DNA of 34,845 bases, taken from Bacteroidaceae bacterium. GTDB taxonomy: Bacteria > Bacteroidota > Bacteroidia > Bacteroidales > Bacteroidaceae. Position numbers and translations under genes: made by a program. The notes under the pieces were generated by a model. That model did not search any database. It was not told the DNA's origin and saw only the letters and a program-made list of their open reading frames with translations. How positions within the stretch are numbered: the first letter of the stretch is position 1; every line of letters starts with the position of its first letter. The stretch lies in assembly GCA_017483665.1 (NCBI GenBank), contig JAFUVM010000013.1:1-34845 (forward strand), read 5' to 3'. This document shows positions 285 to 34,375 of this stretch, one piece after another.

Positions 285-1685
285 TCACAGGTCTCTTCCC
301 GGCCTCAGCTTTTCTGCATCGTCGAAGGTCAGGATCGCGTTGCACAGAGTGGCAGCCAGGTTGCTTCCGCCCTTGCGGCCCTCCACGATAATCTTTGGAA
401 TCTCCCGGAAGGGCTTCACCATGTGCTTCGACTCCTTGACATGCACAAAGCCGACAGGAGCCGCTATGATGCCTGCAGGACGGGCTTTCCCCTTGCGAAT
501 CAGGTCGCAAAGCTCCATCAAGGCCGTTGGAGCGTTGCCGAAGACAAAGAGGGCATCGGGATGTTCCTCAGCGGCCAGCCGGATTCCCGCTTGCGTTCTT
601 GTCGTTCCATGCGAAGCAGCCATCTCTGCCACCCGAGGGTCGCCCAGGTAGCACTTCGCCTCGACGCCCAGACGCCCGAGAGCACCTTTGCGGATGCCGC
701 TCACGACCATCGTCACATCCGTCACAATGGTTCTCAGCCTGCCGGCCCTCACCATCTCGTAGAGCGTCTCCACAGCCAGCGGGTCTGTGCGGAGAATGCG
801 TTCCATGTCGAAATCGGCAGTAGTATGGATGGCATGCAGCAGCGCCCATTTGTGGCCCAGCGGCCAGTCTTTTCTGCGCAGCTCGCCCTCGATGGTGCGG
901 AACGACCGTATCATGATGTCCTGCCCCACCTTCGCGGCTTCCGTCGGCTCTTCGCCGTAGTAGCCTCTGGGCGTAATCATCTTGCCATCCGACACATACG
1001 TCTGCGAATTGCCGATGATGACGACTGTGAACATGTCCACATCCTCCGGGTCGAATTCGGAGAGCGTCACCGTCTTCACCTCCTGCTCCTCGCGTCCAGC
1101 CTGGCGCACATAGCCCACGGGCGTTTCCGGCGAACGGTACTTCAGCAGCAGCTCCTGCAGGCGGTACAGCTGCCAGTAGCGTCCGTTCGACTTCGGGTTG
1201 TAGACAGCCGTCACGAAGTCGCCCGCGGCCGCCGCCCTGATTCGTCGCTCTATCACCTCCCAGGGCGTCATCAGGTCGGAGAGTGAGATGAGGCATAGGT
1301 CGTGACCAAGGGGAGCTCCCAGCAGCGCCGCCGCCTTCTGGAAGGCCGAGATGCCGGGCAGCACCTCCACCTCGACCTGTCCGCCTTGCTTCTCGCGCAT
1401 CTCGTAAATGAGCGGAGCCATGCCGTAGATGCCCGCGTCGCCGCTCGAGATGACCACGACGGTCTTTCCCTCTCCAGCCAGGCGGAAAGCCTCTTCCGCC
1501 CGCTCGCGTTCCCTCTTCATGCCCGTATCGACGCACGTGCAGCCGTCCTTCAGGCAATGCTTCACAAACTGGAAGTAGTATTTGTATCCGACGATAGCGT
1601 CCGCCTCTTGCATAGCCTCCATCACTGCAGGCGTGATGTCCGCCGCGTCGCCCGGTCCGATGCCGGCCACGATAATCTTTCCCAT
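285..1685 (-). CDS. cobJ-cbiC: Fused precorrin-3B C17-methyltransferase / precorrin-8X methylmutase
   Basis: A 466-residue bifunctional enzyme of the corrin ring (vitamin B12) pathway. Residues 1-243 are a SAM-dependent tetrapyrrole methylase of the CobJ/CbiH type: GIGPGDAADIT at 8-18, SSGDAGIYGMA at 80-90 and a VYNPKS stretch at 161-166. This half contracts and methylates the ring. Residues from about 245 on are a CbiC/CobH methylmutase, which moves the C11 methyl to C12. The HTTADFD motif carries the expected active-site histidine (H287), and a GNAPTAL motif sits near residue 390. Such fusions are known in Bacteroidetes. The start at 1685 is favoured by the promoter 34 nt upstream. No cobalamin-riboswitch-like leader fits in that gap, so control by B12 would have to act elsewhere. 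No other cobalamin gene is visible here. Confidence 0.93.
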   Translation of the reverse strand: MGKIIVAGIGPGDAADITPAVMEAMQEADAIVGYKYYFQFVKHCLKDGCTCVDTGMKRERERAEEAFRLAGEGKTVVVISSGDAGIYGMAPLIYEMREKQGGQVEVEVLPGISAFQKAAALLGAPLGHDLCLISLSDLMTPWEVIERRIRAAAAGDFVTAVYNPKSNGRYWQLYRLQELLLKYRSPETPVGYVRQAGREEQEVKTVTLSEFDPEDVDMFTVVIIGNSQTYVSDGKMITPRGYYGEEPTEAAKVGQDIMIRSFRTIEGELRRKDWPLGHKWALLHAIHTTADFDMERILRTDPLAVETLYEMVRAGRLRTIVTDVTMVVSGIRKGALGRLGVEAKCYLGDPRVAEMAASHGTTRTQAGIRLAAEEHPDALFVFGNAPTALMELCDLIRKGKARPAGIIAAPVGFVHVKESKHMVKPFREIPKIIVEGRKGGSNLAATLCNAILTFDDAEKLRPGRDL

Positions 1686-1915: not shown

Positions 1916-2010
1916 CTACTTGAGAACAACCTTTCTGCCGTTCACAAAGTATAGCCCGTGCATCGCAGGCTTAGCACCAAGCTTACGTCCGCTCAGGTCG
2001 TACCAGGAAT
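1916..2010 (-). other. Detached C-terminal sorting-tail coding segment
   Basis: In a frame different from the annotated gene, the minus strand encodes SWYDLSGRKLGAKPAMHG, then LYFVNGRKVVLK and TAG at 1916-1918. The pattern Y-D-L-x-G-R-K, then G, then V-N-G-R-K-x-x-x-K matches the ends of four other exported proteins in this window. It has no start of its own and is best read as the lost or switched-off end of the 2013-4283 gene. Confidence 0.75.
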
Positions 2011-2038
2011 GGTCAATGGTCAATGGTCAATGGTGAAT
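2011..2038. repeat. GGTCAAT heptamer repeat at the gene 3' end
   Basis: Plus strand: GGTCAAT at 2011-2017, 2018-2024 and 2025-2031, then the variant GGTGAAT at 2032-2038. The stop codon of the leftward gene lies within the first copy. Because 7 is not a multiple of 3, each gain or loss of a copy changes the reading frame into the downstream tail sequence. Confidence 0.85.
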
Positions 2039-4283
2039 GATTAATGTCCTTGATGCCGTCGGGGTCAATCTCTCCTGTTCTGAAAGTCTGCTGTTCGCCA
2101 TAGAATGTTTCGTTTCCAGATGTGGTGACGAATGCTACATAGTGGTACTCCGTCTCATAGTCGAGGCCTTCCAGCGAAGCCACCATCATATTGCCATTGG
2201 CTATCACTATCTTTGCATTTGCTGGTATGCTCTTAGCTCCATTTTTGACAGAGGTCGGCTCGTCCTTCCAATACATGAAGCCCTGTTGTTCCACATCATC
2301 AGAGCCTTGCATGACGAAGCCCTTCACCTCTGCAGTGTTGCCGGAGACGTTGATGCTGTTGTAGGTGTGTACCGAAGGCTCGAAGAACGAAGCATCCGAC
2401 GGGTCAATTGTTACCCATTCGCCCCAATATCTGTTTCCAGCCTGCGACCGGAAGTAAGGGCGTATCTTCCAGAACTTCTCGGCATTCAGGTTCTTTATGG
2501 AACCTTCGATGGTGCTGGCATAGATGTATGCTCCGCCTGCTCTGTTCTCTATCTCATCAGGCCAGTCATAGCGCCTCCATTCGAAGCCAACGTTCACGTT
2601 TTCTTCCTCTGTTATGTTCGGGGTGGCGACAACCACCACATCGCCTCTTGCCACAACTTTCGTCTGTGAAATCTTTAGCGTCAGAGCGTCCGTCGTGAAC
2701 TGAGCCGGATATGTAGCTACTCCACCTTCTTCAGTCGTTATGTAGTAGGTGTATTCATAGGTCTGCCCCGGTTCGAGCCCGGAGAGACTGAGCGAGTTCA
2801 CCTCCTCTTCCGCGCTGAAGCTTGCACTGGTTACTGTGGCATCGCCTGCATCATAGCTGACGTTGATGTCGAGTGTCGTCGGAGAGGTCTTATAGTCGAA
2901 GTTGACGGCAATGTCCGCCGTTGTCACATCCGTCTCTTCCGTCCAGTTGTACTTCCCAATATCCGCAGTCACCTTCACATGGTATGTCTTGCCGGGAGTA
3001 AGTCCTGTCAGCTTTTCTCCGTCGCCCAGGTCATACTCTTCGCCGTCTATCGTTGCCTTGATGTTCTTAGCTGCAGCCGTTCCGCTTTGGGTCTGGACGT
3101 GGAAGGTCGTTTGTGTGACAGTTACCTCAAACTGACTCGGCACTTTCACTGTCACCATGCAGGATGCCTCCAGTTCTGTACCGTCTGTCGTAGTGGCAGT
3201 GATGGCAGCCTTACCATTCCTCAGGGGAGTTATTGTCCCTTCATCGTTGACGGTCACAATACTGGTATCGCTGCTGCTCCAGGTCACCTCCTGGCTTGCC
3301 TTGTCGGGAGTGATGGTTGCTGCGAGCTTCGTGGTCTTCAATTTCGTTATTGTCATCTTCTCTTTGCTGAGGCTGAGAGTGGCAGCTCGGAAGTCGACCG
3401 TCACCTTGCAGCTGTCCTTCAGTTCCGTGCCGTCGGTTGTGCAAACAACGATGTACGCTTCTCCGTTGTCCATTGGCCTTACCACACCTTTCTCATCCAC
3501 GGTTGCAACATCCGTGTTGGTGCTGTTCCACATAACGGTCTTATTGATAAGGTTGTTTGGGGAAAGTGTCACATTCAACTTCACAGAATCCGTATTGTTG
3601 AATACGAGGCTTTCCTTGTCAAGCTCGATTCCTGTTGCAAGGTTAAGGGTGAAGGTTCCGGTTACAATGACATCCTTGGCTGGCATTGTCTCGGGAATCT
3701 CGCTCCATCCGCTAAAGGTATAGCCTTCCTTGCTCGGCTCTTCCTCTGGGGTGATGGCAGTTCCGTAAACAATCGTCATGGTCCTGTAAACCTCTCCATC
3801 CACCTTGTAGGTCAAGGTATATGAAACATCTACCCTAAACGTGATATCCTTTGCTGTATGTGTCTGCGATGCATTCGTAGCCAGAATGACGTTTTTCAAC
3901 GATGCCGTACCACCCTTTGCATCTTTGGCTGCAGTAAGCGACAGCTTGATGATTTCGCCGCTATAGCCACTGATGGGTTTGAGGGCAAACGAAGTGCTCG
4001 TCAAACGATAGTCACCATTGGGTTGCTTGCCGATAGTCAGCTCCTGATTCTCGTCGGTGAAACGTTCAGTCAGTTCACAGCCAGCCTTGTTCAACGTAAT
4101 TCCGTCAGGCAGCGTCAGGTCCATCTGGAAAGATACGATGTCGTTCTCGTAATTGTCGAGATTGATTCCGACCTCCTTTGTCTCGCCTGCAGTCAGTGTC
4201 ACATTCTCAACACTGATTGTCTGCGCATTAGCATCCAGTAAGCTGAGTGCCATTGCTATTATGGAAAGAATATACTTTTTCAT
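2013..4283 (-). CDS. Exported multidomain protein with InlB-type repeat and two Big_2 domains; C-terminal tail out of frame
   Basis: 756 residues, family unnamed. A signal peptide (1-20, ending in DANA) is followed by a cohesin-like beta-sandwich (about 22-155, core NLDNYENDIVSFQMDLTLP). An InlB/Listeria-Bacteroides repeat covers about 155-212 (GYTFSGWSEIP). Two bacterial Ig-like Big_2 domains cover about 215-296 and 300-380 (VMWNSTNTDVATV, VTWSSSDTSIVTV), and fibronectin-like strands follow to the end. It is probably a surface protein binding glycans or proteins. It starts 15 nt after the BspA-like pseudogene and shares its promoter. The frame ends at TGA 2013-2015 inside a heptamer repeat. 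With one fewer repeat copy it would read on to 1916 and gain a tail with WYDLSGRKLG and FVNGRKVVLK, typical of sorting tails in this window. The gene is therefore either phase-variable or newly truncated. Confidence 0.85.
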   Translation of the reverse strand: MKKYILSIIAMALSLLDANAQTISVENVTLTAGETKEVGINLDNYENDIVSFQMDLTLPDGITLNKAGCELTERFTDENQELTIGKQPNGDYRLTSTSFALKPISGYSGEIIKLSLTAAKDAKGGTASLKNVILATNASQTHTAKDITFRVDVSYTLTYKVDGEVYRTMTIVYGTAITPEEEPSKEGYTFSGWSEIPETMPAKDVIVTGTFTLNLATGIELDKESLVFNNTDSVKLNVTLSPNNLINKTVMWNSTNTDVATVDEKGVVRPMDNGEAYIVVCTTDGTELKDSCKVTVDFRAATLSLSKEKMTITKLKTTKLAATITPDKASQEVTWSSSDTSIVTVNDEGTITPLRNGKAAITATTTDGTELEASCMVTVKVPSQFEVTVTQTTFHVQTQSGTAAAKNIKATIDGEEYDLGDGEKLTGLTPGKTYHVKVTADIGKYNWTEETDVTTADIAVNFDYKTSPTTLDINVSYDAGDATVTSASFSAEEEVNSLSLSGLEPGQTYEYTYYITTEEGGVATYPAQFTTDALTLKISQTKVVARGDVVVVATPNITEEENVNVGFEWRRYDWPDEIENRAGGAYIYASTIEGSIKNLNAEKFWKIRPYFRSQAGNRYWGEWVTIDPSDASFFEPSVHTYNSINVSGNTAEVKGFVMQGSDDVEQQGFMYWKDEPTSVKNGAKSIPANAKIVIANGNMMVASLEGLDYETEYHYVAFVTTSGNETFYGEQQTFRTGEIDPDGIKDINHSPLTIDH

Positions 4284-20163: not shown

Positions 20164-22254
20164 ATGAAAAAGACTTTTAAGACACTTGCACTCATGTTGC
20201 TGACAGCATTGTTCGTCAGCAGCTGTGCTGACGTTCCCGCACCTTACACCTTGCCCAACTCGAAGAGCGAGACAGAAGGTAACTCCGGTACAACCATCGA
20301 GCCTGCGGGCGAAGGCACTCTGGCTTCTCCCTACAACGTGGCTGCCATCGTCGCTAAAATAAAGGACATGGAGGCTGGTGTGGAATCGACCGAAGAGTAC
20401 TACATCAAGGGTAAGGTCATCAATGTGAAGACCGACGAAGCTACCATCAAGCAGTACGGCAACCATACCTTCGAGATGGTAGACGAGGGCAACAACTCCA
20501 CCGTCTTCACTGCCTTCCAGGTCTATGGCCCGGGCAAGAAGAAGTTTACGGCTGTCGACGACATCAAGGTGGGCGACGAGGTTGTTGTCTGCGGTAAGGT
20601 GGTCAACTACAAAGGCAATACGCCCGAGACCGTAGGCAAGGGAGCTGCATACGTTGTCTCCATCAACTCTGCCGATAGCGGCGACTCTCAAGAGGAGGGT
20701 AAGGTCATCACTTGCGCACAGGCTGTTGAGCTGACAAACGCCTTGGCCGATGGCGGCGTTTCTACAGAGTCCTACACTATCACTGGTTACATCACGGAGG
20801 TTATCGGTTCGGTCAGCAGGGACCAGCAGACTTTCTGGATGGCCGACACGAAGGATGGCGGCCGTGTCTTCGAAGCTTACTGGGCAAACCTTCCCGAAGG
20901 CGTGTCGGAGTTCAAGGCCGGCATGAAGGTGAAGATTACCGGTCAGCTGATGAAGTATGTCAATAACAGTGGTGTCGTTACCCCCGAGGTAAAGAATGCC
21001 GACGTTGTAATCCTTGAGGATGGCGCTGGCGAGCCTGTCATCACTCCCGAAGGTACAGACGTTACTTGCGCACAGGCTGTCGAGCTGACAAACGCCTTGG
21101 CCGATGGCGGTATCTCAACAGAGACCTATACCGTCACAGGTTACATCACAGAGGTTATCGGTTCGGTCAGCAGGGACCAGCAGACTTTCTGGATGGCCGA
21201 CACGAAGGATGGCGGCCGTGTCTTCGAAGCCTACTGGGCAAACCTTCCCGAAGGCGTGTCGGAGTTCAAGGCAGGCATGAAGGTGAAGATTACCGGTCAG
21301 CTGATGAAGTATGTCAAGAATGGTGCCGTTACGCCTGAGATTAAGAATGCCGACGTTGTAATCCTTGAGGATGGCGACAACGAGCCTGTCATCACTCCCG
21401 AAGGTACAGAAGTAACATGCGCACAGGCTGTCGAGCTGACAAACGCCTTGGCCGATGGCGGCGTTTCCACCGATACCTACAGCGTCACAGGTTACATCAC
21501 TGAGGTTCTCGGTTCAGTCAGCAGGGATCAGCAGTCCTTCTGGATGGCCGACACGAAGGATGGCGGTCGTGTCTTCGAAGCTTACTGGGCAAACCTTCCC
21601 GCTGGCGTATCGGAGTTCAAAGTTGGCTCGAAGGTAAAGATTACCGGTCAGCTGATGAAGTATGTCAAGAATGGTGCCGTTACGCCTGAGATTAAGAACG
21701 CCGACGTGGTGATTCTCGAAGAAGGCGACGGCGGTCAGGGTGAAGATCCCACTCCCGGTCCTGGCGGCGACACCGTCAGCGACCTTGTCAACGGCGGCTT
21801 CGAGACTTGGGTCAGCGACTCCGAACCTACAGGCTGGAAGTCTGCCAGCAGCGCAAGCAGTGCCACTCTGAGCAAGAGCAGCGATGCACACAGCGGCAGC
21901 TTCGCCTGCAAGGTCTTGGCACCCGGCACACAGAACAAGCGCCTTGCCACTCAGGAGATAACGCTCGCAGCAGGCAGCTACACCTTCTCCTTCTATGCAA
22001 AGTGCACGACAGCCGACAAGTGCCAGACGAAAGGCGGCTACGTACATGTGAACGACGACGGCTCGATAACAGATTCCTATCAGTATGCAAAGACATACGT
22101 CGACATCAACAACAACGGTTGGACACTTGTTTCCTATGACTTTGAGCTGACGACAGCCACAAAGCTCTGCCTTCTTGTCATGAATCCTAAGAACAGCAGC
22201 TATTCCGTTTCTCAGGACATACTCATCGACGACGCCACTTTGGTGAAGAAATGA
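20164..22254 (+). CDS. Lipoprotein with one divergent and three near-identical OB-fold-type repeats plus a C-terminal beta-sandwich
   Basis: 696 residues. The lipoprotein signal ends at the lipobox VSSC (C21). Residues about 55-170 form a divergent OB-like unit (YYIKGKVINVKTDEATI, VGDEVVVCGKVVNYKG). Three nearly identical units start at residues 183, 301 and 418, spaced 118 and 117 residues. Each has TCAQAVELTNALADGG, TGYITEV, SVSRDQQ and VKITGQLMKYV. From about 540 a carbohydrate-binding-like beta-sandwich follows (NGGFETWVSDSEPTGW to ILIDDATLVKK). OB folds bind nucleic acid or oligosaccharide. With the DUF5689 protein and the receptor it could form a multivalent surface binder. The family name is not certain. 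Confidence 0.85.
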   Translation: MKKTFKTLALMLLTALFVSSCADVPAPYTLPNSKSETEGNSGTTIEPAGEGTLASPYNVAAIVAKIKDMEAGVESTEEYYIKGKVINVKTDEATIKQYGNHTFEMVDEGNNSTVFTAFQVYGPGKKKFTAVDDIKVGDEVVVCGKVVNYKGNTPETVGKGAAYVVSINSADSGDSQEEGKVITCAQAVELTNALADGGVSTESYTITGYITEVIGSVSRDQQTFWMADTKDGGRVFEAYWANLPEGVSEFKAGMKVKITGQLMKYVNNSGVVTPEVKNADVVILEDGAGEPVITPEGTDVTCAQAVELTNALADGGISTETYTVTGYITEVIGSVSRDQQTFWMADTKDGGRVFEAYWANLPEGVSEFKAGMKVKITGQLMKYVKNGAVTPEIKNADVVILEDGDNEPVITPEGTEVTCAQAVELTNALADGGVSTDTYSVTGYITEVLGSVSRDQQSFWMADTKDGGRVFEAYWANLPAGVSEFKVGSKVKITGQLMKYVKNGAVTPEIKNADVVILEEGDGGQGEDPTPGPGGDTVSDLVNGGFETWVSDSEPTGWKSASSASSATLSKSSDAHSGSFACKVLAPGTQNKRLATQEITLAAGSYTFSFYAKCTTADKCQTKGGYVHVNDDGSITDSYQYAKTYVDINNNGWTLVSYDFELTTATKLCLLVMNPKNSSYSVSQDILIDDATLVKK
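20710..21723 (+). repeat. Three-copy 351-354 bp coding repeat in the OB-fold lipoprotein
   Basis: Copies begin at about 20710, 21064 and 21415. Long stretches are identical at the DNA level, including silent positions, which points to recent duplication or ongoing gene conversion. One extra codon in copy 1 gives the 354 versus 351 bp spacing. Copy number could vary by recombination without breaking the frame. Confidence 0.88.
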
Positions 22255-22789: not shown

Positions 22790-22902
22790 TGCAACATAGA
22801 GTTTTTGCAAAATAATCTGCAAATCTGTCATAGGATATGTAGTCGGCTGCATACAAACATGTTACGACATGGCAGATGGTATGACAGATGGAACAGATAA
22901 AG

Positions 22903-23046
22903 TTGACAAGTTAACGAGTTGACAAGTTAACAAGTTGACGAGTAGACAAGTTAACAAGTTGACGAGTTAACAAGTTGACGAGTAGACAAGTTAACGAGTA
23001 GACAAGTTAACAAGTTGACAAGTTAACGAGTTGACAAGTTGACGAG
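22903..23046. repeat. 8-nt degenerate tandem array, 18 units
   Basis: Eighteen consecutive units of exactly 8 nt, consensus T(T/A)(G/A)AC(A/G)AG, run with no insertions or deletions. Only positions 2, 3 and 6 vary, each between two bases. Examples are TTGACAAG, TTAACGAG and TAGACAAG. Between 22790 and 22902 I see no gene. Confidence 0.9.
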
Positions 23047-23070
23047 TTGAGAGAGGTATCGTTCCCGGCA

Positions 23071-23242
23071 CGTGAGAACATTGGGTTCTGTACGTGGGAA
23101 CGTTGGGTTCAGTACGTGGGAAGCTTTAGCTCGACGAAGTCAACCGTTAGGTCAACGAAGTCAACGGTGGGTTCAGTACGTGGGAAGCTTTAGCTCGACG
23201 AAGTCAACTGTTAGGTCGACGAAGTCAACGATTGGGAAAGGT
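23071..23242. repeat. 21/22-nt composite array with a 64-nt higher-order duplication
   Basis: Units start at 23071, 23093, 23115, 23137, 23158, 23179, 23201 and 23222, each 21-22 nt. They fall into three related types opening with CGTG, CGTGGGAAGC or AAGTCAAC. The block 23115-23178 is repeated at 23179-23242 with few changes. The word CTCGACGAAGTCAA occurs at 23131-23144 and 23195-23208, and inverted in the aldolase 45-nt repeats (14193-14206, 14238-14251). Confidence 0.8.
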
Positions 23243-34099: not shown

Positions 34100-34375
34100 C
34101 CTTTATGTTTCGTTGTTCCTTCGTTGTTCCTTCGTTGTCGTTTCGTTGTTGCCACGTCGTTCCTTCGTTGTCGTTTCGTTGTCGCCACGTCGTTTCGTTG
34201 TTGACTTGGTACAGCCTCGTTACACCTTCGGTGCAGGTTCGATGCACCTTCGGTCGTTGTTCGGTGTTTGCTCGGTACGTGGTCGCTATTTGTCCGCTAC
34301 TTGTCCGGTCAATAACCGGACATATACCGGACAAGTGCCGCACGATTACCGAACCACAATGCCGATAAATTGCCG
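34100..34375. repeat. 11-nt period degenerate array filling the leader of the uncharacterised gene
   Basis: From 34100 the plus strand divides into about 25 consecutive units, nearly all exactly 11 nt (one of 10 nt at 34276-34285, one of 13 nt at 34352-34364). The sequence drifts along the array: CGTTGTTCCTT and CGTTGTCGTTT near the gene, TACACCTTCGG and TGCACCTTCGG in the middle, CTACTTGTCCG and GACATATACCG at the far end. A CG dinucleotide recurs near one edge of most units. It lies wholly within the predicted 5' leader. Confidence 0.85.

Follow-up and report, generated by a model that had tools for sequence, protein, structure and literature searches.

The heptamer array that ends a surface-type protein gene in the window (the whole 34,845-nucleotide stretch of DNA analysed here) is probably a coding-adapted dispersed repeat that works in the manner of the Rickettsia palindromic elements (RPE) and carries a sporadic extra unit at this locus, and not a maintained switch. 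We propose that the array is a single member of a heptamer repeat family which is dispersed and has become adapted to a place within the protein genes of the genus. Its arms are placed singly or as inverted pairs around a spacer (hairpins) in enzyme loops and linkers and before short C-terminal tails. The working linker in front of a tail has two units after a changed unit, and the window has three. The extra unit shifts the register by one base and brings in an unsuppressed TGA, so that the protein ends without its tail. The likely cause would be a single slippage, or an unequal exchange between dispersed arrays, perhaps during an exchange of tails. The event would be recent because the tail is undamaged, and the third unit would be a sporadic mutation or else a minor allele. 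The coordinates are collected in Table 1.

Table 1. Coordinates of the features at the window locus and of the EtfB loci used for comparison.
Feature	Position	Strand	Remarks
Surface-type protein gene	2013..4283	(-)	ATG at 4283; 756 aa; TGA at 2015-2013, within the array
Three exact heptamer units	2011..2031	(-)	GGTCAAT on the + strand, ATTGACC in gene sense
Variant unit GGTGAAT	2032..2038	(-)	ATTCACC in gene sense; in-frame TGA changed to TCA
C-terminal tail WYDLSGRKLG...NGRKVVLK, then TAG	1916..2005	(-)	Off the gene's register by one base
Linker between body and tail	2006..2050	(-)	In homologues and other tail proteins, various dispersed repeats
EtfB locus of the own genome (L278)	G000:C131:7339-8133		Other EtfB loci are L279-L307

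The product of the gene contains two Big_2 stretches and a Flg_new repeat by family matches, together with an fn3-like match below the cut-off. Its N-terminus looks by eye like a secretion signal. The unsuppressed TGA that ends the gene comes from the third unit in gene sense. The full tail beyond it reads WYDLSGRKLGAKPAMHGLYFVNGRKVVLK followed by TAG (2005..1916), with about 29 residues, and belongs to a short type. Counted from the start codon, 4283-2005 = 2278 = 3x759+1, which puts the tail one base off. Without one unit the distance becomes 2271 = 3x757 and the tail is in register; without two units it is 2264 and the tail is off again. Since three consecutive exact units in the ATTGACC sense carry a TGA in every frame, arrays of 4, 5, 6 or more units stop at the same TGA. 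By this frame arithmetic the tail of the window gene is reached with two units only, and a switch with many on states is ruled out, as everything above two units in this sense stops at the same TGA. The initial annotation had described a gene stopping inside three GGTCAAT copies and one variant, with an intact tail out of frame. Coordinates and translations agree with that description, and its frame statements for one, two and three copies are arithmetically correct. In 100 dinucleotide-preserving shuffles of the window, no three-unit match arose with up to three mismatches. An inverted-repeat search of the window linker found no inverted repeat within it. The next gene downstream of the tail (window 285-1685) encodes a fusion of a CobJ/CbiH methyltransferase with a CbiC precorrin-8X methylmutase.

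That a tail belongs on this gene, as the initial annotation implied, is borne out by its homologues. Of 139 genus genomes, 30 have matches to the C-terminal part of the gene. With the window counted these matches are at 37 places, and all 36 others were read. At 29 of them the frame continues into a tail. Three end in a dockerin-like repeat (G151 twice and G073 once), another one in G073 (contig C35) is cut short within a dockerin-like repeat, and three distant ones (G011, G195, G112) show no such tail in the stretch read. A search of the own genome with the 29-residue window tail gave 51 matches, the last of which (C64, 16 residues, 11.9 bits) was dropped as a chance match. Among the remaining 50 tails, 49 join open frames of 120 to 3657 aa, and the window tail alone lies in a frame of 36 aa. 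With this resemblance to 49 other tails of its genome and with homologues tailed at the same point, the tail as a chance frame is ruled out. To be noted, all 29 tailed homologues carry a longer tail type (GINIIRYSDG...KV) and the window has the short type, so the window tail has probably been exchanged at some time. That same tail would once have stood in frame in the window gene. An original out-of-frame junction is possible, since all tailed homologues differ in tail type. The linker between body and tail is itself variable. In homologues it holds CTCACCCC...CTCTCC-type or other fillers, and recognisable repeats are found at no fewer than 7 of the 49 own tails. In particular, the linker of the homologue G097:C8 is a heptamer array in decayed form (GIKDIEHSPLNIEEAW; ATTCACC and then two units), through which the gene reads into its tail.

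The two-unit arrangement is also found at array–tail junctions elsewhere. The genome_contigs collection (84,980 species) was scanned for W-Y/F tails with a pair of ATTGACC units no more than 30 bases away. This gave 10 stretches, nine of which are tails (L137 is not a tail). At eight of the nine junctions the tail continues an open frame of 349 to 1525 aa in register; the linker there has two units after a changed unit and reads IDHSPLTIDHS or a close variant. These eight and the decayed linker of G097:C8 agree with two as the read-through number given by the initial annotation. The ninth junction (L131, identical to G094) has its tail in a 49-aa frame. At L131 1230-1262 a signal-peptide-like stretch is found near the heptamer linker and its tail, in another frame and with no intervening body, and L131 is possibly a deletion relic. 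Such a junction is present in five of 139 genus genomes, the window's included. The linkers of two of the stretches, L133 and L138, are identical and their tails 90% identical, although the bodies are only 61% identical, no better than other unrelated pairs in the comparison. Comparison of these two sequences suggests that linker and tail were exchanged together between bodies.

The heptamer belongs to a dispersed family. The own genome (3.06 Mb, an assembly of 150 contigs and 78% complete) matches three tandem units 17 times and two units 60 times, with no match in the reversed control. Three tandem units occur in 29 of the 150 genomes searched, the own genome counted, and all of these belong to the genus (29 of 91 genus genomes). 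We call the group rumen-type from the sources of the array–tail stretches, which are goat omasum, sheep abomasum, rumen and red deer. Of 26 proteins scanned, nine have the array embedded in a single Pfam domain match that extends to either side of it; these are phosphoglycerate mutase, MutY, a GH3 enzyme, CbiD, an OPT transporter, LeuA, EtfB, AlaS and PurD. Arrays lie between or beside domains in ValS, a PurL-like protein, a sigma factor and a second GH3 protein, and others directly follow a signal-peptide-like stretch. Intergenic arrays are found as well (C3 and C23, by eye). The GGTCAAT sense is open in all three frames and always gives the cyclic peptide GQWSMVN. The ATTGACC sense, if unchanged, contains a TGA every 21 bases, and changed in-gene arms give IDHSPLTIDHS. 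Inverted pairs of arms around a spacer are found in EtfB, ValS, AlaS, the PurL-like protein, an AIR-synthase-related protein, an FAD-dependent protein and the sigma factor; many other copies, the window's included, are single arms. At L006, L009, L012, L019, L028, L046 and L105, in-gene pairs of the form ATTGACCn, spacer, GGTCAATn encode peptides of the IDHSPLTIDH...NGQWSMVNGQ type. A spacer of the ATPE(D/N) type is common to the ValS copy, the AIR-synthase-related copy (L009) and one in L001 at 236.

Frame keeping was assessed from the codon usage flanking each array of at least three units, scored with a model trained on 11 window genes. All 34 informative arrays, which have coding sequence of the same gene on both sides, keep the frame, and all 34 are in the GGTCAAT sense. 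Nine of the 13 arrays of this size in the own genome lie within a gene and keep its frame; the other four have one side below the coding threshold and are uninformative on frame. The window array falls below this threshold because only the 90-base tail lies beyond it. Among the matches listed, other genomes provide 68 arrays (from 17 of 28 other array-bearing genomes), of which 25 keep frame, 41 have a side below threshold and are likewise uninformative, and one shows a change of strand. One call of a frame change (L260) was discarded, as the array there is intergenic, with a different gene on either side. The edge of this gene-end array (L260 1252-1294) appears to provide the TGA stop of the preceding gene, and by eye the same appears at L034 (G000:C23:3213-3226).

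In the stop-bearing sense we counted 16 in-gene ATTGACC arms unit by unit. The would-be TGA is changed at all 20 in-frame positions (14 TCA, 3 TGT, 2 TTA and 1 TCG), a figure that is partly circular as only stop-free arms were counted as in-gene. Off-frame units keep their TGA in 48 of 51 cases, so the stop changes are not general decay. The arms include the doubtful L103, whose open frame runs opposite the likelier gene, and L279, an orthologue of L012; without these two the counts are 17 of 17 in-frame positions changed and 42 of 44 off-frame units kept. The changed units are mostly ATTCACC or ATTCATC, one per 21 bases in genes. The variant unit of the window carries the same TCA change as 14 of the 20 in-frame positions in these comparable arms.

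Several known systems can be compared with this family. The RPE of Ogata et al. (2000, 2002), as described in a review of MITEs (PMC10969869), are short palindromes of several families that lie in frame in unrelated metabolic genes and are translated. Like the RPE, the heptamer copies sit in frame in unrelated conserved genes and have empty sites in relatives. Unlike the RPE, which are about 150 bases long, the arms here are heptamer arrays, many of them single, in a different phylum; they carry single stop-removing changes and also precede C-terminal tails. The likeness drawn here is one of behaviour, and we do not claim RPE membership. TAACTGA heptamer direct repeats are described in PMC4679880 from Beggiatoaceae, some Cyanobacteria and five Bacteroidetes. 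One sense of TAACTGA gives a short peptide and then a stop, which limits the placement of arrays in genes, and the majority in the Maribeggiatoa genome lie just upstream of start codons (PMC4679880). GGTCAAT is likewise a dispersed heptamer direct repeat with a sense-dependent constraint, again with no claim of membership. In contrast to TAACTGA, GGTCAAT arrays lie here mostly in genes (9 of 13 in the own genome), and the stop-bearing sense is used with stop-removing changes; this placement relative to start codons is to be read with the 41 of 68 other-genome arrays that fall below the coding threshold among the matches listed, where a different habit is possible. The short tandemly repeated repetitive sequences (STRR) of cyanobacteria are dispersed heptamer arrays too. 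They are mostly intergenic, unlike the arrays of the window genome, which are mostly in genes. In the open-licence literature searched we found no report of in-frame heptamer or palindrome insertions in Bacteroidales, and none of type IX tails under slippage control.

In slipped-strand contingency loci, a tandem repeat whose unit length cannot be divided by three lies within an open frame. We consider it unlikely that the window array is a C-terminal contingency locus of this kind, where slippage between two and three units toggles the product between a tailed, surface-sorted form and an untailed one, as the initial annotation had supposed. Several features speak for it. Exact tandem repeats lie at the junction of body and tail, the tail is reached through two units but not through three and bears no damage, the protein is of a surface type and tandem heptamers can slip by nature. 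As in a contingency locus, the repeat is placed so that its copy number alters the reading frame of the product. Slipped-strand contingency in Moraxella is mentioned in PMC4679880. However, only three exact units are present and every number but two loses the tail, more units never restoring it. In addition, frame is kept by 34 of 34 in-gene arrays, and eight of nine comparable junctions share the two-unit arrangement with an open frame. Four arrays could be paired between G000 and G077 (flanks of 90-94% DNA identity). By eye, three pairs are equal in length and the fourth shows a difference of 21 bases; one of these arrays, close to a gene start, may be non-coding, and the window array is not among them. 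The window array itself is comparable only with the decayed linker of G097:C8, which is not a close orthologue. Judged from these sequences, the G077 pairs argue against rapid slippage at few loci only. The locus differs from contingency loci in its few units, in the apparent length conservation of the few comparable arrays in a relative and in having one state only that gives the tail. Other observations count against a sporadic break. An intact tail without other damage is also expected of a switch in the off state, and tail detachment is not unique (G094/L131, and G073:C35, which is cut short). The comparison covered one genome of the window species. Read as a switch, the locus is unproven, and it is probably ordinary.

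It is quite unlikely that the third unit is a consensus or assembly error and that the true sequence has two units, even with two units as the rule at other junctions and a genome in 150 contigs that is 78% complete. The array of about 35 bases is below ordinary read length, and assemblers tend to collapse repeat units, not to add them. An adaptive loss, with the untailed form as the selected product in the window species, is very unlikely: the dockerin-like module that stands instead of a tail at three of 36 homologous places indicates an exchangeable C-terminus, but here the tail is intact directly downstream and a replacement module is absent. A +1 shift of ribosomes at CAT TGA C in the array, making some tailed protein, fits a tail exactly one base downstream of the body register and the TGA C stop context of the RF2 frameshift site, but is hardly credible given the poor re-pairing of the His codon CAT to ATT and homologues that need no shift.

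The preferred reading, that of a coding-adapted dispersed repeat, is accompanied by filled and empty sites in conserved enzymes. PurD was matched in 131 of 139 genomes, and the loop before PKVIEYN was examined in the 30 that were read. It contains the heptamer peptide MVNGQWSM in G000 and G077 and a point-mutated copy with the frame kept in G027 (L153). Four loops have a repeat-like filler (L156, L160, L166, L167), seven have a different longer loop (RTNTPTGEPEPY) and 16 of the 30 have the short form. EtfB was matched in 112 of 139 genomes, and 30 loci were read. The GGTCAAT palindrome is found in G000 and G178, with folding z scores of -7.6 and -9.0 against shuffles. Four other inserts form hairpins (z -2.6 to -7.3), those of G077, G185 and G089 being one family and that of G110 another. 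Further inserts are present in G013, a shorter relative of the G077/G185/G089 family, and in G193, a different one; neither is accepted as a hairpin, as they fold no better than shuffles (z -0.9 and -0.5). No insert is present in 18 of the 30 loci, which have a 15-residue site of the type EEILSLKDGKITVK, and four loci are intermediate (G181, G026, G098, G168). Folding alone is weak evidence, because several of the short 45-base EtfB sites have a slight folding advantage over shuffles as well (z down to -4.7). The PurD and EtfB sites and the linker between body and tail are hot spots filled by differing repeats.

A wider picture may be put forward tentatively. The rumen-type Bacteroidales genus may have several families of short coding repeats, some of them palindromic, that spread in frame into enzyme loops and linkers, with the EtfB loop filled by the GGTCAAT palindrome in two species or by unrelated hairpin inserts in four. 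The stop-bearing sense would be kept translatable by changing the in-frame TGA only, and the repeats would also form the joints to exchangeable tails, where one unit gained or lost detaches or attaches the tail. A repeat family with in-frame, stop-suppressed insertions in conserved genes is more unusual than the question of a switch. In this genus of gut bacteria, repeat insertions are translated as parts of conserved enzymes, and a given loop is filled from different repeat families in different species. How repeats become parts of proteins is hence testable in a lineage besides Rickettsia. The pattern also suggests a route for the exchange of tails of exported proteins between bodies.

Regarding the sorting of the tail, the T9SS translocon protein SprA (TIGR04189) is found in the own genome with 2659 bits on C44 and in none of 14 control genomes. 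The T9SS type A model TIGR04183 has been applied to C-terminal domains (CTDs) of rumen Bacteroidetes (PMC5831590). Like that domain, the window tail is C-terminal, has Y-D-L-x-G-R and then G-x-Y with a basic end, and belongs to a genome with SprA. Unlike it, the tail has only about 29 residues, and none of the 49 own tails matches the model at E 0.01. The window tail matched no family in the family scan and, judged by the model, is not taken for a T9SS type A domain. When the 49 tail regions were scanned with Pfam, no family was common to more than two members. The type IX label of the initial annotation thus holds for the presence of the translocon and fails for the tail model. From the sequences at hand, type IX export of the short tails is plausible. 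The tail of the neighbouring gene gave a sub-threshold T9SS type A match (E 0.061, 13.3 bits). In the own genome TIGR04183 matches nine other places, three of them over the cut-off; 13 of the 14 control genomes have matches too, one over the cut-off.

Other repeats are present in the window. A 351-base unit is repeated 2.9 times at 20713-21729, inside ORF 20164-22254; four stretches of the encoded protein match an OB-fold family. Further arrays, with units of 16, 22 and 64 bases (AGTTGACAAGTTAACG among them), lie at 22901-23230. Near the contig end, at 34107-34307, arrays of an 11-base unit of the TTCGTTGTTGC type are found.
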